DNA from: Halopenitus malekzadehii
GTDB taxonomy: Archaea; Halobacteriota; Halobacteria; Halobacteriales; Haloferacaceae
NCBI RefSeq assembly: GCF_900108505.1
Contig: NZ_FNWU01000005.1
Location: forward strand, 62,001 to 126,000
Direction of reading: 5' to 3'
DNA length: 64,000 nucleotides
The notes beneath the pieces were generated by a model. It was not told the DNA's origin and ran no database searches. It saw only the letters and a program-made list of their open reading frames with translations. The position numbers and the translations under genes are program-made. Positions 5,792 through 18,223 of the stretch are shown piece by piece; the stretch's first letter is position 1, and each line of letters starts with the position of its first letter.

Positions 5792-6484
5792 TCACCTCTG
5801 CACCGTCGGTGACAGTGACTTCACCGAGAACTCTGATTTCGAGCAATACCACTGAGCAAGCCGTCCGAGATCACGGGTCCGAAGCACATCAGCGACGTTA
5901 TGAGCCACTAGGTCAGCGAACCGTCCCTCATTGAACGCTGTGACTGCTTCACCACTCTCGACGAACGGATCCACGTCGCTGTACCGGCCATCACACAGCA
6001 CGTCATAGACGCCTGCTAAGTCACTCTGATCATCAGACACGACATCACCGTCACCACCATCACAGGATGTGACGGTCGTATTGAATCGCCGCGTTAAGAC
6101 CGGCAGAAGATCCGCGTACGGGAGCTCACGGAACGGCCACTCAATCTCCAACCGTGCCAAGCGCGTCCGAAGGAACGGGAGATCGAACCCGCCCTTCCAT
6201 CGTTCTCCGTTGAACGCCACCAGCAACACGTCATCATCCTGGAGCCGGTCCGCAGTGAACGATCCCACTGCTTCAAACAGCGCTCGCTCCGTCGGATGCG
6301 TCGTTACCTGCACGTGTACAGGCACGCGATCACTAACACGTCTCTCCACACTGTCGGCATCCCGACTACCAGTCTGGACGAACACGCGGACGCCCATCGG
6401 CACCGCGAATCCGATTACAGTAACCTCGTCGTCGACACCGAACCCAGTCGTCTCAATATCGAACGCGACCAGTTCCAGCACCAC
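5792..6484 (-). CDS. DnaQ-like (DEDD) 3'-5' exonuclease of the HRAMP operon, 230 aa
   Basis: The protein opens with AFDIETTG (D9, E11), continues with a middle motif around FNGERWKGGFDLPFLRTRL, and closes with HNVADVLRTRDL, which supply the four acidic metal ligands of the RNase-H-like DEDD exonuclease fold. At the final motif a histidine stands four residues before the aspartate, where DEDDy enzymes have tyrosine. The GTG start at 6484 overlaps the stop of the Cas5-like gene by one base (TAGTG), indicating translational coupling. DnaQ-like nucleases are recurrent partners in HRAMP loci and are proposed to replace standard CRISPR nucleases. Confidence 0.85.
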   Translation of the reverse strand: MVLELVAFDIETTGFGVDDEVTVIGFAVPMGVRVFVQTGSRDADSVERRVSDRVPVHVQVTTHPTERALFEAVGSFTADRLQDDDVLLVAFNGERWKGGFDLPFLRTRLARLEIEWPFRELPYADLLPVLTRRFNTTVTSCDGGDGDVVSDDQSDLAGVYDVLCDGRYSDVDPFVESGEAVTAFNEGRFADLVAHNVADVLRTRDLGRLAQWYCSKSEFSVKSLSPTVQR

Positions 6485-7512
6485 TACGCTTCACCCCCTG
6501 AGACATCTGCCTTCTCAACGTCGTGTATCAGCTCGGCACGATCCGGGATGCGATCATCGCTCGCCGGGCGGACTCGAAGCTCACCGAATCCGAACCGCGA
6601 ATGTGTTCCAACCCGGGATACCCCGTTCTTCGCCGTCTTGACCGGGTCCGATCCGTCGTACCCGACAATCTGTCCGTGGTCAATCGTCGCTAGGTCATAC
6701 ACGTCTCCATCGTCGACGAGCCGTTCCGTCCGTCGCCGTAGCCCGGATCCTCTCGCCTCACTCACCTCACCCTCATTGTTACGGTCACAGTCAGCCGCAC
6801 TCGACGGCGCAGCTGGGCGGGACACATCCCACCACCACGGCACGGACTGATCATCAGCACCGGGGTAGTCGGTCGCTATGACGAACGGTGACACCAACTC
6901 AAGGGCGTGTTCGTCGGCTGCTGCGATCCGGTCGTAGTCCAACGCCTCAAGATCGATCAGTTGTGAATCGACGATCGACAACTGACCGAACCCGTAGTTT
7001 CGCGCTCCACCAACCTGTAGGCCATCCAGCGTCTCGTCCGCGACGGGAAGCACTGATTTCGAGTGCGAACCAGTCGTAGACAGGTAACACTGGACGAACC
7101 ACCGAACCGATCGTTTCGAGGTCTGCATCTCTGGCGGGCGACCAAACCACGCGACCGAATCGAACGCAAGCCGCCCACCGTGCGACTGGACAGGATGGGC
7201 GTTATGCGCGTCCCGCGGCCGCGACGACTTCAACCAGCGCTGCGCCGAATCCCGCAGCAAGAACAGATCATCATACGTCTCTACCGGGGGTAACGACAAT
7301 CCAACTTTCCCCAAGGACGACTGGGAGTGCCACGACGGCGGCGTTCCGTACTCTTTGGGTAAGAACACACCGTGACTGACGCACAACGCTCGCCGCATCC
7401 GTTCGCCGACACGCTGTGCTAGTGCCTGATAGAGCGCGTTCCCTGTCACGAAGTACGGGTGCCCCAGATACCCCGTCTCCAGCTCGAACAGCACCTGCTG
7501 GATACGCGTCAC
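6484..7512 (-). CDS. HRAMP Cas5-like RAMP protein, 342 aa
   Basis: Two glycine-rich loops typical of RAMP (RNA recognition motif fold) proteins are present: GGARNYGFG at 168-176 and VGTHSRFGFGEL at 301-312. The second is directly followed by a beta strand, as in Cas5 and related proteins. The N-terminal YLGHPYFVTGNALYQALAQRV resembles the first strand and helix of a RAMP. The start is GTG at 7512, in a GTGA context, after a 367-base non-coding gap. In class 1 effectors Cas5 caps the crRNA 5' handle; here the ligand RNA is unknown. It has diverged greatly from named Cas5 families, so the assignment rests on the glycine loops and the operon. Confidence 0.75.
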   Translation of the reverse strand: MTRIQQVLFELETGYLGHPYFVTGNALYQALAQRVGERMRRALCVSHGVFLPKEYGTPPSWHSQSSLGKVGLSLPPVETYDDLFLLRDSAQRWLKSSRPRDAHNAHPVQSHGGRLAFDSVAWFGRPPEMQTSKRSVRWFVQCYLSTTGSHSKSVLPVADETLDGLQVGGARNYGFGQLSIVDSQLIDLEALDYDRIAAADEHALELVSPFVIATDYPGADDQSVPWWWDVSRPAAPSSAADCDRNNEGEVSEARGSGLRRRTERLVDDGDVYDLATIDHGQIVGYDGSDPVKTAKNGVSRVGTHSRFGFGELRVRPASDDRIPDRAELIHDVEKADVSGGEA

Positions 7513-7540
7513 GCTAACTCACCCCCTACATTTCCACTCC

Positions 7541-7803
7541 AGACCCCGACCAGTGCCCGAGACCGAAGCACAGCGGACTGTAGTCCAGACACACCCTGTT
7601 TCCAGTGCCCTGACCCGTACAGCACCGTTACCGGCGCAATATAGGGGGTAAAGGGGATACGCATCGACCATCCGCCTCGAAGCGACACCGTATCTCGCCG
7701 CAGTGATACCGGCCTTCTGTCTCGACGACCACACACCCCGTTTCCAGTGTCTTCACAGGAACACTTACACCACGAGGCACACACCCCATTTCCAGTGCCC
7801 CGG
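7541..7803 (-). repeat. Degenerate short direct-repeat array inside the HRAMP operon
   Basis: On the minus strand a ~20-nt word, consensus GRCACTGGAAAYRGGGTGTG, is clear at about 7781-7800, 7733-7752 and 7591-7610. Degenerate versions occur near 7685-7706 (CACTG...GGTGT) and 7541-7559 (GGCACTGG then CGGGGTCT). The CACTG cores are spaced 48, 44, 98 and 52 nt, that is, one interval of two units. The whole gap between the Cas7-side gene and the Cas5-like gene is otherwise non-coding. An open frame crosses it, but the repeats fall in different frames, so selection is on DNA or RNA. The layout resembles a small, eroded CRISPR-like array; it could instead be a processed leader or protein-binding site. 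Confidence 0.6.
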
Positions 7804-7879
7804 GCAGGAGACCCGTCTATACCGTCGTATTCCGGCATCGACGCTGCCCTGCAACGAGGAGATTCGAAGCGCCCCATCG

Positions 7880-8740
7880 TTACGACCACCCCTGCTTTAC
7901 CTCGGCAGCACGAGGCATACTACGCCACGAAACGAACTCCGCGATGTACTGTAGCGCCGTCGACCAAGATCGGAGCCGTCGAAGCTGCGCATCCAACACC
8001 ATCCATTCTCGCGCCTCATCCACATCGAACGGTTCCTGCGACAACCGCGACCACACGTCCGCAAACGATCGGGCTGGTCCCGGCCCGAGCCTCGCCGCCG
8101 GCCGATCACCCGGGTCACTCGTCACAGCCAGCGTCACCAACGGCGACCACAAGACAGTTCGATACGGCGACACCACACCACTGTCTAACGCCGCTTCGAC
8201 ATCGGCATCAGCGGCCGTCGGCTCACCAGGCCATACTGCCAAGAACAATTCGTCGAAGCTCCGTCCTGCACGGTACTCAGACAACAGCGCCGCCGTCAAC
8301 AACACGTGGTACTTCAACGATGTGTACGGATAATACACGGATTCGTTGAACGCCGCCGCCACGTCGCTCGTCAGCCACGTTGCGTGTAGTCGAGGCGCAT
8401 CATCAGATACCACCAACGATCGGAACCCGCCATTCCCGGCCGCCTCGATCCGGTCCGGTTCCGTCGCAGACTCACCCGTTAGCAATGACAACCGATACGG
8501 AAACGAGTGATTTGCCACCGTCTGTTCCGGCTCGCCCGGCGGCCGACTCAACAACGCTGCATCACCATCCGCACCACGCGGTACGGCCTCGTTCACCGGC
8601 ACACCGTGGTACACCTCAGCACCCGACCCGTGCCGCCGACCATTCATTTTGTGCACATCGTGGCGATACACCGCCACCATCGGATCAGCAACCGTCTCAC
8701 CGACAGCATCAGCATCCACCAGGTCACGAGCGTCTCCCAT
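7880..8740 (-). CDS. Conserved uncharacterised HRAMP protein, 286 aa
   Basis: I see no known domain. The protein is soluble with an Arg/Gly-rich early part, then ESVYYPYTSLKYHVLLTAALLSEYRAGRSFDELF near 130-165, which looks helical, and an aromatic helical end (LRRLRSWSTALQYIAEFVSWRSM). Its ATG overlaps the stop of the Cas7-like gene by one base (TGATG). Published descriptions of HRAMP loci include one conserved protein of unknown function beside Cas5 and Cas7 homologues, and this gene occupies that slot. It might be a small or large effector subunit, but no activity can be read from it. Confidence 0.7.
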   Translation of the reverse strand: MGDARDLVDADAVGETVADPMVAVYRHDVHKMNGRRHGSGAEVYHGVPVNEAVPRGADGDAALLSRPPGEPEQTVANHSFPYRLSLLTGESATEPDRIEAAGNGGFRSLVVSDDAPRLHATWLTSDVAAAFNESVYYPYTSLKYHVLLTAALLSEYRAGRSFDELFLAVWPGEPTAADADVEAALDSGVVSPYRTVLWSPLVTLAVTSDPGDRPAARLGPGPARSFADVWSRLSQEPFDVDEAREWMVLDAQLRRLRSWSTALQYIAEFVSWRSMPRAAEVKQGWS

Positions 8741-9732
8741 CAGAGCTCACCTCGCTTTCTCTCGCCGGCGTCGTCTCGACGATCAATCGGTGTATCCAAC
8801 TCGCCGTCGGCATCGCTCACACGTGTTTGCAACGCCCGAACGAACTCCTCACGATACGTACGCCACTCATCGTCTTTCTCCTGCATCGCCGCCGTCGGCT
8901 TCCGCGCCCGGTTGTACACGCGGCGAATCTCCTGCTCGGAATACAGCGGATTCAGAACCTCAACATCCGCAATCCCTGCACCGAAATTCCGCGCCCCACC
9001 GAGCTGGAACTCGAACGAATCACTCTTCCCGTTAAGCAACGAAACCGCTTCCAGCAGCAGTCCGACGAACTCCGGCTTCAACGATCGAAGCGTCAGGAGC
9101 CACGTCCCCTCGACGTTCCCGACCACGTCCCGAGTCGCGTGCCGCAACGGCTGCCCACCGTCTTCATCGTTCCGCGACCGAACCTGCGTGTGCAGTTGCC
9201 GGTAATGCGCCTCGGCTTCACCACGGAGAACATCTACCTGGGAGCGAACCGGCGAGAACCGAATCGGCCGGCGCAACAGCTCGCCTGGCTTATCGCCAAA
9301 CCCACCGAACAACTCGTACACAACGCAGCCCTGCTCGTCGCTCCCCGCATCAACGCACTCGCCCTTCTCGTGGTAGCCCTGGCTCAGGTCTCGATCGTAC
9401 ACATCCGCGCGCATATAGTCCGCATTCGGTTCACCCGGATGGCACGCCGTCATCCCAGCAATCTGCAACACGCGTTCACAGCCGTGCCGTAACCAGCCCG
9501 ACAGCGTGAACGGCGAAATCTGCCCACGGATCTGATTCATCGCATCATCCGCCTCGTACCGATCCGCAGACGCATGATGCCGATCAGTCACGACACCGTC
9601 ACCCGGCGCAAGCAGATCCACCCCAAGGTCGAGGTAGAGATCCGGGAACGTCGACTCATCGACAGGTGGAAGCTCGAACTCACCGTCAAGGTGCCCCACC
9701 GAGAATGACGGGGACTCCGATCCCCCCGTCAT
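8740..9732 (-). CDS. HRAMP Cas7-like RAMP protein, 330 aa
   Basis: Residues 69-89 (RGQISPFTLSGWLRHGCERVL) match the Cas7/Csm3 pattern in which a short loop precedes a helix that starts with a small-residue-rich K/W-L-R segment. LFGGFGD at 141-147 recalls the conserved LFG stretch of Csm3/Cmr4 proteins. GGARNFGAG at 245-253 is the glycine-rich RAMP loop, followed by a strand. C97, C126 and C136 lie in an insertion and may bind zinc. Cas7 subunits form the RNA-binding backbone of class 1 effectors. It overlaps the upstream gene by 4 bases and the downstream gene by 1 base, so stoichiometry may be set by coupling. Confidence 0.8.
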   Translation of the reverse strand: MTGGSESPSFSVGHLDGEFELPPVDESTFPDLYLDLGVDLLAPGDGVVTDRHHASADRYEADDAMNQIRGQISPFTLSGWLRHGCERVLQIAGMTACHPGEPNADYMRADVYDRDLSQGYHEKGECVDAGSDEQGCVVYELFGGFGDKPGELLRRPIRFSPVRSQVDVLRGEAEAHYRQLHTQVRSRNDEDGGQPLRHATRDVVGNVEGTWLLTLRSLKPEFVGLLLEAVSLLNGKSDSFEFQLGGARNFGAGIADVEVLNPLYSEQEIRRVYNRARKPTAAMQEKDDEWRTYREEFVRALQTRVSDADGELDTPIDRRDDAGERKRGEL

Positions 9733-10247
9733 TGCGAACCACCACTGTCACACCACGACGACGGCTGCTCACGGCCAGATGACTCCGTCACCACACCCGA
9801 ATGAGTCACATCAACTCCGGCACCCTCACCATCGGCACCCGAGTCCGGAGCATCATCCAGCGTGTATGCCTCTATCGAGTTTACCGGACTGAAGACAACT
9901 GGCTCAGGGTCCAGTAAAACCGGCCACGTTGACTGCGTCGCAGTGTCCGACACAGTACCAACACGCCCCCGCACAACCAGCTCACGGAGCGACCGATCCC
10001 ACGAGCGATTATACTCATCTCTATGCCCTCGACAAAACACATCCTCAATCTTAAATTTCGGATCAGATTTCGATCGAAAAGCGGACACAGTAATGCGTCC
10101 GTCTTCACGAATTTGAGAGTCGCAGACTTGACAGGTAACGGCCCCTTCCGCCAAATCTGTTCGTTTCAGCTGATGGATGTCTTCAATAAATTCGCTGTCG
10201 ATGCCTTCTTGGTTTGGTAGTGTTGACTCTGTCATAGGTTCGCTCAC
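9729..10247 (-). CDS. Zinc-finger protein, first gene of the HRAMP operon, 172 aa
   Basis: Residues 39-75 contain C39xxC42 and C72xxH75, a treble-clef-like zinc site (CQVCDSQIREDGR and FCRGHRD). A strand-rich middle (STWPVLLDPEPVVFSPVNS) and a low-complexity acidic C-terminus follow. The start is ATG 10247, with ATG 10235 as an alternative. It overlaps the Cas7-like gene by 4 bases. The 5' leader is highly structured (10262-10316). Zinc fingers of this type often bind nucleic acid; a role in target or guide binding, or in autoregulation of the leader, is possible but unproven. Confidence 0.7.
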   Translation of the reverse strand: MSEPMTESTLPNQEGIDSEFIEDIHQLKRTDLAEGAVTCQVCDSQIREDGRITVSAFRSKSDPKFKIEDVFCRGHRDEYNRSWDRSLRELVVRGRVGTVSDTATQSTWPVLLDPEPVVFSPVNSIEAYTLDDAPDSGADGEGAGVDVTHSGVVTESSGREQPSSWCDSGGSQ

Positions 10248-10261
10248 ATCCGCTGGGGGAA

Positions 10262-10316
10262 CCTGGCCCGCGTGTTAGGCCACGCGGGTGTTCTACAACA
10301 CCCCGAAGTGACCAGG
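10262..10316 (-). promoter_or_regulatory. Structured 5' leader of the HRAMP mRNA
   Basis: Three nested stems can be drawn: CCCGCGTG/CACGCGGG (10267-10274 with 10281-10288, loop 6), GGGTGTT/AACACCC (10286-10292 with 10297-10303, loop CTAC), and an outer CCTGG/CCAGG (10262-10266 with 10312-10316). The two inner stems share GGG, so they may be alternative folds. The transcript predicted from the TATA box at 10347-10354 would begin close to the outer stem. Candidate roles are a riboswitch-like control element or a stable small RNA. Confidence 0.6.
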
Positions 10317-10346
10317 CCCTTACTGAATACTGTATACCGCTAACCA

Positions 10347-10354
10347 CTTATACC
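10347..10354 (-). promoter_or_regulatory. TATA box of the HRAMP operon
   Basis: GGTATAAG on the minus strand matches an archaeal TATA element. A start about 25 bases downstream, near 10325, would give an ~80-base leader. Two palindromes, GTATAC (10332-10337) and AGTATATACT (10366-10375), flank it and may be operators shared with the divergent small gene at 10424. Confidence 0.55.
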
Positions 10355-11195: not shown

Positions 11196-12425
11196 ATGAG
11201 TAGTTCGTCGGACGGCTATACTGTCGAAGAGGCAGAAGAGAATATTGGGATTCTCCGCCGTGTTACTGAGGATGTCGTCGAAGCGATCGAGAATGCAGAG
11301 AGCGAAGAGGTACTAGAGTACCTCATCGAAGATCAGGAGCTTGATCGACTACACGACGGTGAGCGTGGTCTTGGGCAAGTTCGTCGTGCTGTCCTCGAAT
11401 CGTCACTTGCGTCCGATCGTCTCAAACGTATTGTGAGTCTGCGGGGCGACGAAACCCCCGAAGAGATTCTGGTCCCTCGGGATGTTCAGCGAAACGCGAA
11501 GGTTGCATTAGAGGCTGGAAAGCCTGTCGTCCTCTACGGGCCGACCGGAACCGGGAAAACCACCTTCGCTAAGCAACTCGCCAGAGAGACGAGCATCGGC
11601 TACAGCCTCAACACTGCAACGCCGTCGTGGACTCCGTCCGACATCATTGGTGGCGTCAGTCCGGATTATACCGGCGAATCGCTAAGCTATCGAACAAAGC
11701 TTGGATGTGTCTCAGAAGCCGTAGAGCGCGCGCGTGACTTCGATGTCGAGTATGGAGTCATCTTGGACGAAATCACCCGAGCCGACATCTCGAAGATCTT
11801 TGGGCCTCTCTATACGGCTATCGAGAATCCCCATCAGACGATCTTCGAGACTGACGAGGGGAAGACGATCGAACTTGACGAGCGAGTGAACATCATCTGT
11901 ACGATGAATATGTCGGATCGTACGGTAAACGAACTCGACAACGCTATCACCCGCCGTTTTGCGATGATCGAACTCGACGAATACGAGGAAGACAAACGCC
12001 GGCAACTGTTCAAGGACTGGATCACCACGCACGTCACCAGCGAGACGGATCTTGACGAGAACGAGATTCTACGGCTCTTCGAGCGCGACTACGAAGGCAT
12101 CAACCATGGTAATGAAGCGACCTCACAGGGACCGATTATGCGGTTCGGTCCGATGCACTACCGCGACGTGGCGGTCTTCCTCGGCGTCGGGTGTCGTGAG
12201 GGCGGCGAATACGAGTACGACCAAACGGACGCAGTCGGTCAAGCGTTCCGTACCTACATTGTTCCTCGTCTGCTAAATGCCGCGGCATTCCCACAGATCG
12301 AACGAATCGCAGAACACTACCGAGCACTCAACGGCGAATTCGAGGACTACGATCTCTCACCTGCGGCTGAACTCGCAGAACGCGAACTCGAACAAGAGCG
12401 TCGCCAGATGGGTTCCTACGAGTAA
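11196..12425 (+). CDS. mcrB: McrB-like AAA+ ATPase, 409 aa
   Basis: Walker A is GPTGTGKTT at 115-123, Walker B is VILDEITRAD at 188-197, sensor 1 is TMNMSD at 236-241 and the arginine finger region is ITRRF at 251-255. The combination of D-E-I-x-R-A-D and T-M-N-x-x-D-R is typical of McrB and related MoxR-like motors. The N-terminal 90 residues are helical and do not resemble the E. coli McrB DNA-binding domain, so specificity may differ. Its stop overlaps the start of the McrC-like gene (TAATGA), supporting one complex in which this ATPase drives the nuclease partner. Confidence 0.85.
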   Translation: MSSSSDGYTVEEAEENIGILRRVTEDVVEAIENAESEEVLEYLIEDQELDRLHDGERGLGQVRRAVLESSLASDRLKRIVSLRGDETPEEILVPRDVQRNAKVALEAGKPVVLYGPTGTGKTTFAKQLARETSIGYSLNTATPSWTPSDIIGGVSPDYTGESLSYRTKLGCVSEAVERARDFDVEYGVILDEITRADISKIFGPLYTAIENPHQTIFETDEGKTIELDERVNIICTMNMSDRTVNELDNAITRRFAMIELDEYEEDKRRQLFKDWITTHVTSETDLDENEILRLFERDYEGINHGNEATSQGPIMRFGPMHYRDVAVFLGVGCREGGEYEYDQTDAVGQAFRTYIVPRLLNAAAFPQIERIAEHYRALNGEFEDYDLSPAAELAERELEQERRQMGSYE

Positions 12426-14191
12426 TGAGCACCGTCGACGAAGTCTACGAATACGGGCAAGATACCTTCAACATCCCCGAGCGGGGTGAAATCCGGATAG
12501 AAGGCTGTCCGTCATCCATAATGGACCAGCTTCGTCGCGCGTCATTCACCCAGGAGAGTCCCGGCGTTTTCACGAAGAGCCAGGAAGCACTCGATTCGGA
12601 CCAGGAATACGAGGTCGTGACCGTCACAGTAGACGGCGACGACAATGAGATACTCCACGTCGAAGCGACGGACATCGTCGGCGTCGTGAGTCTCACGCCA
12701 TCGTCGAAGGTACAGGTCGATCCAAAGATCGACTGGGAGCACATCTTCGATATGCTGTTGGCGGTTTACGACCAGAACCGGTCGATCGAGTATCACGGCA
12801 TCCCGCTCCAGGATTTCCTCTCCGACGACATCCATCTCGACGATGTGTTCGTCGTGCTGGCGATCAACTACCTCGACGGGTTGGAGAGGATCCAGCGGAA
12901 CGGATACATCCGCGACCTCGTCATCAGGAGAGTCAACAGTCTGGATGGCCGCGGCGACATCGATGTCGAGCAAACGCTGCTGAACCACGCTCGGGGAACG
13001 ATCGAACCACACTGGATCCGCAACGAGACCGAGTATAACAACGCTGCCAACTCGTTGCTCCATTACGCGGGGAAAACGCTCCTTCGACTCTTCCGGCAGA
13101 AATCCTCGGAGAACGACCACCCCGCCTATGATCGGATCTTCTCCGAAGTCCATCGAGAGGTGGAAAGACTGGAAAGTATGGGCGTCGATAGCGGCCTGGA
13201 TCGGATGGACGAGTACCGGGAAATTTCGCTTCACGACCTTCCAAAGCAACGTCGGTACTATCAGAAAGCGTTCGATGTTTCCAAGGCGGTGATGTCCTCG
13301 TCCCTCGGCCAACAACTGCGTGACGGGCCGCGAGAGTTGGTCGTGGACTACGTCCTAAATATGGAGTCGCTGTTCGAACAGTACTCTCAGGTCGTCATCG
13401 AACGGGAGCTCAATTACATCAAATCCTACGACCACCTCGGTGACCTGGATGACGTTACTCCGGTTCGGTCACCATCGGTTAAGCCGTTCGAGGGGGAAGG
13501 CCAGATCTACCACGAGCCCGACCACGCGCTCCAGGAAGGTGACGAAACCATCGCAGTACTGGACTCGAAGTACTACGCGGAAGGCCACGATCCGGTGAAA
13601 GAGTCACCATCCCGTTCCCGGTTGTTCAGCTACGCATACCTGCTCCACACCGAACGTCTCGCGTTCCTGTGTCCGCTGCTTGAGCCGCGACGACGACGTG
13701 TCGCTCAGACCGGTGCCGAGCTTCAGATCGTGTCACCGGCCGGTGAGTTTGCCCTGGACTCGTACGACGAAGTGATCCACGACTACCTTCACGGCGTCCT
13801 CGTAGAGAACAGCCCGGAGCTGGAAGCCTTCCGTGCTGTCGCGGAGAGCGACAACCACCTGTGTCTCGATGGAGTCGACGAAAGTGATCTGGCTCGTGCG
13901 ACGGATATGAGCGGCCCGTTCGCGTTCAAGGATGCGCGAGATTTCTCACTCCAAGTCATCAAAGCGGCTGCTGACGAGTACTCCTGGGAAGTTCGCAATC
14001 GATACGATCTGGAGCAAGACGGCGGCTGGACGCGAGAGCAAATTGAAACCCGGTGTGAACGACGGTACGAACATACGACGACGTGTGTGCCCGTCTTCCG
14101 TCGAGATGGGGGCCAGGAGTGGATTGATCTCTACTTTATTGAAAACGGCACTGGAGAAGTAGAGATGGAAGGGCCGCTAAAACTGTTATAG
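12425..14191 (+). CDS. mcrC: McrC-like nuclease subunit, 588 aa
   Basis: The region 100-320 matches McrC organisation: a strand-rich segment around VVSLTPSSKVQVDPKIDW, a GRGDIDVEQTL motif at 175-185, and MESLFEQY at 313-320. It is followed by a PD-(D/E)XK core: E364-P-D366 and D380-S-K382 (VLDSKYY). The C-terminal ~140 residues (after 450) are unusual in length and end with a region EYSWEVRNRYDLEQDGGWTREQIE that may be an added domain. McrBC enzymes cut DNA with modified cytosines; whether this variant recognises methylation cannot be told. It partners with the ATPase at 11196. Confidence 0.85.
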   Translation: MSTVDEVYEYGQDTFNIPERGEIRIEGCPSSIMDQLRRASFTQESPGVFTKSQEALDSDQEYEVVTVTVDGDDNEILHVEATDIVGVVSLTPSSKVQVDPKIDWEHIFDMLLAVYDQNRSIEYHGIPLQDFLSDDIHLDDVFVVLAINYLDGLERIQRNGYIRDLVIRRVNSLDGRGDIDVEQTLLNHARGTIEPHWIRNETEYNNAANSLLHYAGKTLLRLFRQKSSENDHPAYDRIFSEVHREVERLESMGVDSGLDRMDEYREISLHDLPKQRRYYQKAFDVSKAVMSSSLGQQLRDGPRELVVDYVLNMESLFEQYSQVVIERELNYIKSYDHLGDLDDVTPVRSPSVKPFEGEGQIYHEPDHALQEGDETIAVLDSKYYAEGHDPVKESPSRSRLFSYAYLLHTERLAFLCPLLEPRRRRVAQTGAELQIVSPAGEFALDSYDEVIHDYLHGVLVENSPELEAFRAVAESDNHLCLDGVDESDLARATDMSGPFAFKDARDFSLQVIKAAADEYSWEVRNRYDLEQDGGWTREQIETRCERRYEHTTTCVPVFRRDGGQEWIDLYFIENGTGEVEMEGPLKLL

Positions 14192-15574: not shown

Positions 15575-18223
15575 TTAGTAACTCGTAATGTCCCGATCAC
15601 CAAGTACTCGGGTGTAGGTGTCGTCGCCAGTGACATCTGCCAGACGGCCGGCAAGTTCACGCAGGTCGTCATCGACACCCCACTTGTCAACGTAGTTCTG
15701 GACGGCCTGTCCCTTCTCGTAGCGGTACCGAAGGAACTGCAGTTTATCGAGGTTCGAGAGGTGGTCGTCGCTATCGCCGTTGGTTCGCTCCTGGATGTAG
15801 GCCTGCCGTTTCTCGTTGTCCCACGTCCCGAGTTCGAAGCCGTCGTCCTGGTTGTAGAGGCAAATCTCTTTTAGCTCCTCGGGCGTGGCGTTTGTGCCCC
15901 GACAGAGCTTGTTCACGTCGTCGAAGGCTGGGTCGTCGCTGTCGAGGAGATCGACGAACACGTCCTCGACGCCAATGTCGCTGGCCTCTTGGATGATACC
16001 GTAAATCTCTTGCACGACTTCCTTGGCAGACATAATTTCGCCGTCGCGCTGTACTTTTCCGTGATGCTTGGAGTATTCGCGGAAACACGCACCCATCTCC
16101 ATCACGCCGATGTCACCCCGTGAGAGGTCACGGTTCTCTTCAAGTTGCTTGCGGGTGCGACGAGCTGTTCGGTAGATGTTACGGCGGAGCGAGTTCCACG
16201 ACGCTGGCTCTGTTTTGTCTATGGGACGGGCGACGACGACGATGTCGAAAGAGACGGATTCACCGGTAATGAACTTACTAATGTCTGCGGTGAGGGGATA
16301 TGTAGCCGTAACTTCGAAGCCGACGTTACAGAGTGATTCAAGAAGTTCTCCCCACGACTCCGAATCGCTGTGGTGGTAAGTGAAAGTGAGTGAGCCGTCG
16401 TCTTTGAGCGCCCTTTTGATTACGGTAAACGCTTGTTCGAGTTCAGACTCAAAGTCTTCCGCGGTCTTATCAAAGTAGGGATTCGTGACGATGGATTCTG
16501 CTCGTGGAGTTTTCTCTTTATCGAATCCAGGATACTCGTCCTCAAGAAGAATCTTCTGCCAAACATAAAAATAATCAGCCAACTCAGAGTAAATGATATT
16601 ATCGTAGTACGGTGGATCCGTAATAACTGCATCATACTCGTTTTCGGCTTTAATTGTCCTCATATCTCCCTGATGAATCTCAGTGTTTGAGCCGATTCCA
16701 TGATTGAATGGCTCTGTTTTTACAGTCTCTCCATTATACACATATCGTTCAGTCGGTGAATTTGCGTATTCAACGCCGCTTTTTACCATATCCCAGTTCG
16801 ACTGGAACGTACCACGTCCGAATTTTGCACCCCAAACGTTGTTTTCTACAGGATATGTGGGTGGATTGAATGAGTTTGTACGGAAAAAATCCCCAATCTT
16901 ATTATAAGGCATATCATAGGAGACCATCATTGTGTTCGTTCTAAGCGAGTCAGTAAACGCCAACAGAAGATACTCTTTTGTGTTTTGATTAGGGATCTCG
17001 GAGATGCGTTGAAGAAGCTTTGAGAAGCAGAGTAGTTGACGCTCGTTGAACATATCCGTCCACTGAATATAGTCGTGGTCAAAGAGTGGACGCCGGTTTA
17101 CTGTTTCATGACCTTCTGGAATACTCTCATCAGGAACAAATTTATGTAAATCTTCACTGGATTCCCACTCGCTTTTTGCTTCAGAGAATAGTTTAACATC
17201 CGCATCTTCAGCTTTTTTGTATCCTTTATGTTCACTTTTTGCTTTCCCTGACTGTTCACAACATTCACAATAATATTCAACAGCATATAGCCGTAGGTCA
17301 TATCCGCCTAATTCCTGAATCGCGTCCGTTATTGCATATTTTTGTCCACAATCTGGACAGTTGTACTTCCCACCGCGTGAGACATTCCCTTCTTTCGGAG
17401 CAAAGCCGTGTCCACAATCATCACAGACGCTCTCTGACTGCCAATCATCTACGAGCGTCACCGCACCACAATCCGGACAAAGGACGTTGTATTTGTCATC
17501 GTTCTCATAGCGTCCCTTCGCCACACGATAGTCCTTGAACAGCGGAACTGTGTGCCCACAGGAGACACAGTCCAATTCCTTCACCCAGAAGTTGTACATC
17601 ACGTCCGCTTTGTGATCGCCGTTCGGACACGGCGTCTTGTAGTACTGGAGAATCTCGTCAGCAACGTCCTCTTTGACTTGCTTGAACGCCGCCTCTAAAT
17701 CCATGACATTGGTCTCTCCAGCTTCAAGTTGCTTCTTCGTGACGAACCACGCGACCGGGTTCAGGTCGTTACCGACAACCTCAGCCCCGAACCGCGAGGC
17801 TTCGACGAGCGACGTTCCACCACCCATAAACGGATCGAGAATCTTTTTGTCTTTGACGCGAACATCCTTCGGATATAGTTCCCAGAGGCTCTCGGGGTCG
17901 CTCATATCAACGCGATTAATGAGCGATGCCACGTCTGTTTCTGTCTCGTCACCCCATCCGTCGAGGGTTTCGTTGTTCTTTCCGGGTTCGAAGACCTCGA
18001 CCTTCTCCGGATCGTCGAGAAGCGTGTACAGCGAGATTGCTCTGAAGACACAGCCGAGTCTCCGGGCCCACCACTTGTGCATCGTGTAGATCGGTCGGTA
18101 GTGCATCTTCGCCCGACCTTCCTTCTCTGCGATTTCGTTCACGCGCTCGATGGGGAATCCCCGTTCGATGGGGAGTTCCGTCCGCTCACGTTCGGTTGGT
18201 GGGGACCCAGATTGCTCAGACAT
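15575..18223 (-). CDS. DUF1156-type DNA methyltransferase, 882 aa
   Basis: The N-terminal PIERVNEIAEKEGRA (24-38) and HKWWARR (49-55) are the hallmark of DUF1156. The SAM-binding motif DPFMGGGTS lies at 130-138 and the catalytic DPPYYDN at 536-542, as in adenine-N6 or cytosine-N4 enzymes. Between 199 and 323 there are at least six CxxC or CxC pairs, a stacked zinc-ribbon block that probably reads DNA. The C-terminal 250 residues are helical. DUF1156 methylases occur with DUF499 ATPases and helicases in predicted anti-phage modules, and a DUF499 and an SNF2 gene follow at 21.8-26.9 kb. It is expected to mark host DNA. Confidence 0.88.
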   Translation of the reverse strand: MSEQSGSPPTERERTELPIERGFPIERVNEIAEKEGRAKMHYRPIYTMHKWWARRLGCVFRAISLYTLLDDPEKVEVFEPGKNNETLDGWGDETETDVASLINRVDMSDPESLWELYPKDVRVKDKKILDPFMGGGTSLVEASRFGAEVVGNDLNPVAWFVTKKQLEAGETNVMDLEAAFKQVKEDVADEILQYYKTPCPNGDHKADVMYNFWVKELDCVSCGHTVPLFKDYRVAKGRYENDDKYNVLCPDCGAVTLVDDWQSESVCDDCGHGFAPKEGNVSRGGKYNCPDCGQKYAITDAIQELGGYDLRLYAVEYYCECCEQSGKAKSEHKGYKKAEDADVKLFSEAKSEWESSEDLHKFVPDESIPEGHETVNRRPLFDHDYIQWTDMFNERQLLCFSKLLQRISEIPNQNTKEYLLLAFTDSLRTNTMMVSYDMPYNKIGDFFRTNSFNPPTYPVENNVWGAKFGRGTFQSNWDMVKSGVEYANSPTERYVYNGETVKTEPFNHGIGSNTEIHQGDMRTIKAENEYDAVITDPPYYDNIIYSELADYFYVWQKILLEDEYPGFDKEKTPRAESIVTNPYFDKTAEDFESELEQAFTVIKRALKDDGSLTFTYHHSDSESWGELLESLCNVGFEVTATYPLTADISKFITGESVSFDIVVVARPIDKTEPASWNSLRRNIYRTARRTRKQLEENRDLSRGDIGVMEMGACFREYSKHHGKVQRDGEIMSAKEVVQEIYGIIQEASDIGVEDVFVDLLDSDDPAFDDVNKLCRGTNATPEELKEICLYNQDDGFELGTWDNEKRQAYIQERTNGDSDDHLSNLDKLQFLRYRYEKGQAVQNYVDKWGVDDDLRELAGRLADVTGDDTYTRVLGDRDITSY

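Follow-up and report, generated by a model that had tools for sequence, protein, structure and literature searches.

The stretch of DNA analysed here, referred to as the window, comprises 64,000 nucleotides of Halopenitus malekzadehii (contig NZ_FNWU01000005.1, positions 62,001 to 126,000) and carries, on its minus strand, an HRAMP operon with genes for A172, a Cas7-like protein, a 286-aa protein, a Cmr3/Cas5-like protein, an RNase H-like protein and an HNH protein. The first gene (9729-10235; alignment A3) encodes A172, a protein of 168 residues with a conserved CxxC...C zinc-ribbon-like core. It has no Pfam match, and its predicted model (pLDDT 77) gave no Foldseek match at E ≤ 0.001 and VIA-align Z values never above 4.3. 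Since several relatives present in-frame stops just 5' of GAACCC-ATG, the likely A172 start codon is the ATG at 10235 rather than the GTG at 10247. Downstream of A172 are found the Cas7/Csm3-like gene (8740-9732; Csm3 profile, E 4e-4), the gene for the 286-aa protein (7880-8740) and the Cmr3/Cas5-like gene (6484-7512). The gap between the last two (7512-7880, minus strand) contains an internal repeat, CACTGGAAACgGGGTGTG, also present in other HRAMP loci (47 copies in the 45 loci whose gap measures at least 40 nt, 16 of these loci having two or more copies). Because most distances between copies are divisible by 3 (mode 48 nt) and the window gap is open in one frame, the gap may hold a repetitive small ORF, encoding a TGNGVC peptide, and not a CRISPR-like array. 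The operon adjoins an McrB-like AAA ATPase and McrC-like gene pair (11196-14191, plus strand), beyond which lies a DUF1156 DNA methylase (15575-18223, minus strand), and the neighbourhood is a defence-rich region.

A preliminary description of this locus had placed ahead of A172, at 10262-10316, a compact structure in which a CCTGG/CCAGG outer stem encloses hairpins of 8 and 7 bp with three shared residues, and this arrangement was confirmed. The sense strand of the HRAMP operon is the minus strand. Read on it, as part of the HRAMP mRNA 5' leader, the 55 nt fold with -29.8 kcal/mol (z = -3.86, with 1 of 200 shuffles doing as well), while the plus strand folds less distinctly (z = -1.85). In the minus-strand RNA, the outer stem (P1) pairs CCUGGUC (10310-10316) with GGCCAGG (10262-10268), and the first hairpin (P2) pairs GGGUGUU (10297-10303) with AACACCC (10286-10292), both helices being defined by folding and by covariation. 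The second hairpin (P3), defined by covariation, pairs GCGUG (10281-10285) with CACGC (10270-10274). The three residues common to both hairpins, GGG on the plus strand, are CCC in the RNA. The functional unit exceeds the span first described, as it runs from about 10325 through the ATG at 10233-10235, and it includes the strands of an alternative helix (P4) on the minus strand: AGGUUC (10259-10264), which overlaps the outer part of the P1 3' strand, and GAACCU (10236-10241; GAACCC in the family consensus), immediately 5' of the start codon. ARAGORN found no tRNA or tmRNA gene between 9500 and 11200, and Rfam 15 gave no significant match in the window or in 26 other loci; a match to the Rotavirus CRE (E 0.73), outside the leader, was disregarded.

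The TATA box of the HRAMP promoter, GGTATAAG, lies at 10347-10354 on the minus strand, and in HRAMP and non-HRAMP copies alike an AT-rich TATA peak is found at about -33 to -28 relative to the P1 foot. With the TATA box at such a fixed distance, initiation is expected immediately 5' of P1, which in the window corresponds to a predicted start near 10325, about 25 nt downstream of the box. The claim that transcripts begin at the structure is thus supported, as a prediction, by both the window and its relatives. Given this predicted start, and with the ATG directly following in the copies read, the leader would represent a same-strand 5' UTR. Scans for sigma-70 promoters and intrinsic terminators carry no information for archaea. 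Upstream of 10325, the TATA box is flanked in most copies by inverted repeats (mean arm 6.4, versus 2.2 after shuffling), whose arms vary in sequence and often lie near -55 and -13 from the P1 foot; these are likely the operators of diverging regulators.

The conservation of the structure was evaluated on HRAMP leaders gathered by protein homology (the Cas7-like protein and then the first gene, A172), that is, independently of structure. Of the 391 genomes of the class that were searched, 103 were found to encode the HRAMP Cas7-like protein; 60 HRAMP loci were fetched, and the sequences 5' of A172 were taken; 42 non-redundant leaders were then folded and aligned with MAFFT (alignment A1), which revealed a common outer stem P1 and the hairpins P2 and P3. 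RNAalifold on A1 yielded 17 pairs, 14 of them with double compensatory changes. For P1-P3, 90.7% of the cells were paired, compared to 79.7% after shuffling, and the double-change cells amounted to 121 versus 38.4, relatedness of the copies being ignored in the shuffle and permutation statistics throughout this work. Sliding the pairs by a single column lowered the paired cells to less than 48%. P3 was paired in 99% of the cells and showed double changes in all five of its pairs, and so did 7 of the 10 pairs of P1. A structure-free covariation scan also ranked pairs of P3, P1 and P2 as the strongest, the top two belonging to P3, and gave no clear signal for an extra helix joining the leader with the early codons that are conserved. 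Among 29 non-redundant non-HRAMP copies, 92.5% of the P1-P3 cells were paired and double-change cells numbered 68 versus 20.6 in shuffles, counts that are biased towards the model because these copies had been picked by structure or by the P1/P3 pattern, and that therefore serve as confirmation, not as independent discovery. The leader is, in consequence, a conserved structured RNA element, with compensatory changes in excess of what column composition yields. The covariation analysis across HRAMP leaders suggested in the preliminary description thus found the stems kept in relatives, with abundant compensatory changes. As for the strand, G-U pairs outnumbered A-C mismatches 73:28 in the 42 HRAMP leaders and 21:5 in a second alignment, an excess which indicates that the functional RNA is that of the minus strand. 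An RNA from the plus strand was discarded, given its weaker fold and its exclusively weak covariance-model matches.

A covariance model built from A1 (R1, with rough E-values) matched 53 of the 54 close-clade HRAMP loci, including one outside the training set (L071), and only one of the six distant-clade loci fetched (L087, at an approximate E of 3.6e-19). Across the class, R1 found the element in 236 of 391 genomes, which represent 72 of 86 genera, with up to 10 copies per genome. The RNA coincided with Cas7 in 86 genomes, occurred without a detected HRAMP Cas7 in 150, and was missing from 17 with Cas7 only (odds ratio 4.7 for the association at the genome level). The element is not, then, an HRAMP component occurring with HRAMP genes only. 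When 295 genomes from across the phylum were sampled, the 24 matches all fell in one order, that of the haloarchaeal copies, and the leader was not found outside haloarchaea. A search of named genomes with a DNA pattern gave 33 haloarchaeal matches (in Halorubrum, Natrinema, Haloarcula, Halorientalis, Halorhabdus and others); six matches in bacteria, devoid of the remaining parts of the element, were regarded as chance. No copy was found in viral contigs with the DNA pattern, a weak evidence of absence considering how narrow the pattern is, nor in phage records by blastn.

The 40 non-HRAMP copies that were read almost all end in ...CC(A)ATG and open an ORF. These ORFs form at least eight unrelated groups, among them SWIM zinc fingers, C2HC-type proteins, LG(T/V)DxxG proteins, HNH proteins, TAT-signal-like proteins, short peptides and A172 remnants, so that one RNA architecture is kept ahead of unrelated proteins. 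At four loci (L102, L104, L112 and L117) the leader precedes A172-like ORFs, some of them shortened or fused, away from an HRAMP cas7; in L117 the ORF is fused to an HNH and HTH protein. These are possibly decayed or rearranged HRAMP loci. It was also observed that codons 9-13 of A172 (CAAGAAGGCATCGAC, 10197-10211, minus strand) are conserved, and that similar bases, like CARGANNNNYCG, occur at the same distance, about 25 nt past the ATG, in unrelated leader ORFs, either as an RNA motif or as a shared N-terminal peptide.

A key element for interpreting the leader is the relationship between P1 and the start codon. The consensus of the P1 3' strand, GGGUUC, is the complement of the hexamer immediately 5' of the AUG (consensus GAACCC). 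In nearly all copies these six bases are GAACCC or a variant of it, and the outer half of the P1 3' strand is complementary to them. The resulting helix, P4, tracks sequence changes between copies, as illustrated by AGGUUC/GAACCU in the window, GGUCUUC/GAAGACC in L123 and GGCUUCUC/GAGAAGCC in L141. When the length of the Watson-Crick helix formed by cognate strands was compared with that formed by swapped ones in 70 non-redundant copies, the values were 5.59 versus 4.66 for non-HRAMP copies (0 of 2000 permutations) and 5.39 versus 4.88 for HRAMP copies (1 of 2000), kinship being ignored in both cases; a control segment gave 909 of 1000. On fixed columns of the 42 HRAMP leaders the effect was modest (88.0% paired versus 84.1% in shuffles), a mismatch is present in P4 of some members, and in the structure-free scan a P4 pair (93-112) appeared at rank 14. 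As P1 and P4 make use of one common strand, their full formation is mutually exclusive, and the leader is accordingly predicted to adopt two exclusive structures, with P4 abutting the start codon. Calculated with standard RNA parameters at 37 °C, and not for haloarchaeal salt, the probability in the window is 0.72 for P1 and 0.10 for P4 (1.7 kcal/mol apart), and P1 is usually favoured among the copies by a median of 3.7 kcal/mol. The early suggestion of a riboregulator thus finds support in the conserved stems, with their compensatory changes, and in a conserved alternative helix. Conversely, the exchange initially proposed, between P2 and P3 through the shared CCC, does not hold, as the extension of P3 into the CCC of P2 covaries no better than shuffles (97 of 500).

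These observations could be integrated in a model, to which we assign a probability of about 0.62, in which the leader acts as a class-wide cis-acting RNA that controls translation by swapping P1 for the start-codon helix P4. Transcription, judging from the TATA box, would start at the foot of P1. P1, enclosing P2 and P3 and usually the more stable state, would form first during transcription, leaving the bases 5' of the AUG free and allowing translation to start, presumably as the default. A putative trigger, such as a bound protein or metabolite, cleavage, or a change in salt or temperature, would open P1, so that P4 could form against the AUG and shut down initiation. Alternatively, the exchange may run in the opposite direction. 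Archaeal termination is not known to rely on hairpins of this kind, and no U-run follows the leader in the window sequence, which makes translational control more likely than attenuation. On the best reading, the leader is a previously undescribed RNA (no description of it was found in the open-licence papers searched) that precedes unrelated genes, HRAMP being one of many gene sets. A tentative extension, which may be right but which we would not favour, is that the switch senses one shared signal (infection, stress or a metal) across the class, co-ordinating HRAMP with small zinc-finger and mobile-element genes, and that it is coupled to the operator-flanked promoter in one portable cassette.

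A different explanation is that the protein encoded downstream (A172 or other zinc-finger proteins) binds the leader and represses its own mRNA, P4 being a by-product or the repressed state. The conserved CxxC...C core of A172, and the SWIM or C2HC zinc-finger-like nature of several other leader ORFs, fit this notion. However, many leader ORFs lack a zinc motif or span only 28-50 aa, and the RNA architecture stays constant while the proteins are unrelated, making self-repression an unlikely account. It could also be considered that operator, TATA box and leader constitute a mobile promoter cassette spread by transfer, with regulation mainly at the transcriptional level, as the inverted repeats flanking the TATA box and the existence of copies on plasmids, near a transposase and near prophage genes would suggest; this leaves unexplained the compensatory changes, the G-U bias and the P1/P4 covariation, and we deem it quite improbable as a full explanation, although operator control can coexist with an RNA switch. 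Finally, the preliminary proposal of a stable RNA bound by Cas5/Cas7 proteins, extended here to a reading in which P1-P2-P3 would be excised as a guide or scaffold and its position on the mRNA would be incidental, agrees with the almost universal presence of the leader in the close HRAMP clade, with the genome-level association with Cas7 and with the description of HRAMP as devoid of a CRISPR array (PMC8730458, PMC12669027), but it is left unsupported, and is very unlikely, because 150 of the 236 RNA-bearing genomes have no detected HRAMP Cas7, copies precede unrelated genes, five of the six distant-clade HRAMP loci fetched lack the leader, and conservation extends to the bases 5' of the AUG with no variable guide segment.

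Compared with known systems, the P1/P4 leader resembles a translational switch, by analogy with translational riboswitches: it is a 5' leader found ahead of many genes, with a conserved folded domain and an exclusive helix by the start codon. In contrast to these, P4 would block the bases directly 5' of the AUG and not a Shine-Dalgarno sequence, no Rfam riboswitch family matches, and the downstream genes share no common metabolic theme. We do not class it as a riboswitch, a term that implies direct binding of a small ligand. According to PMC8241225, the fluoride riboswitch of Thermococcus kodakarensis is the sole natural one demonstrated by experiment in archaea. The S15 ribosomal leader of Halobacteria, located before rpsO (PMC7247131), is likewise a structured 5' leader with a multi-stem junction, yet the ORFs read behind the present RNA are non-ribosomal and do not include rpsO, a distinction made on gene context. 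With CRISPR repeats and crRNAs the leader shares its location on an operon of Cas5/Cas7-like genes, but it is present in one copy per transcript, without a repeat-spacer array, ends at the start codon and is widespread without HRAMP Cas7. The string CACT..CGGGGTGT, noted earlier as recalling the core of the internal repeat, does exist at about 10298-10310, although among 126 leaders it appears only in that of the window, and the likeness looks like chance.

Hardly any natural RNA switches are known from archaea, and haloarchaeal mRNAs frequently lack a leader. With its clear design of competing helices, a leader present in about 60% of the haloarchaeal genomes sampled, and frequently multicopy, would provide a defined system for RNA-based translational control, as well as a first entry point to the regulation of HRAMP, a CRISPR derivative that has no array. 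A copy 96.5% identical to a consensus-like query was found on plasmids of Halobacterium salinarum, which makes the leader testable in a genetically tractable species.
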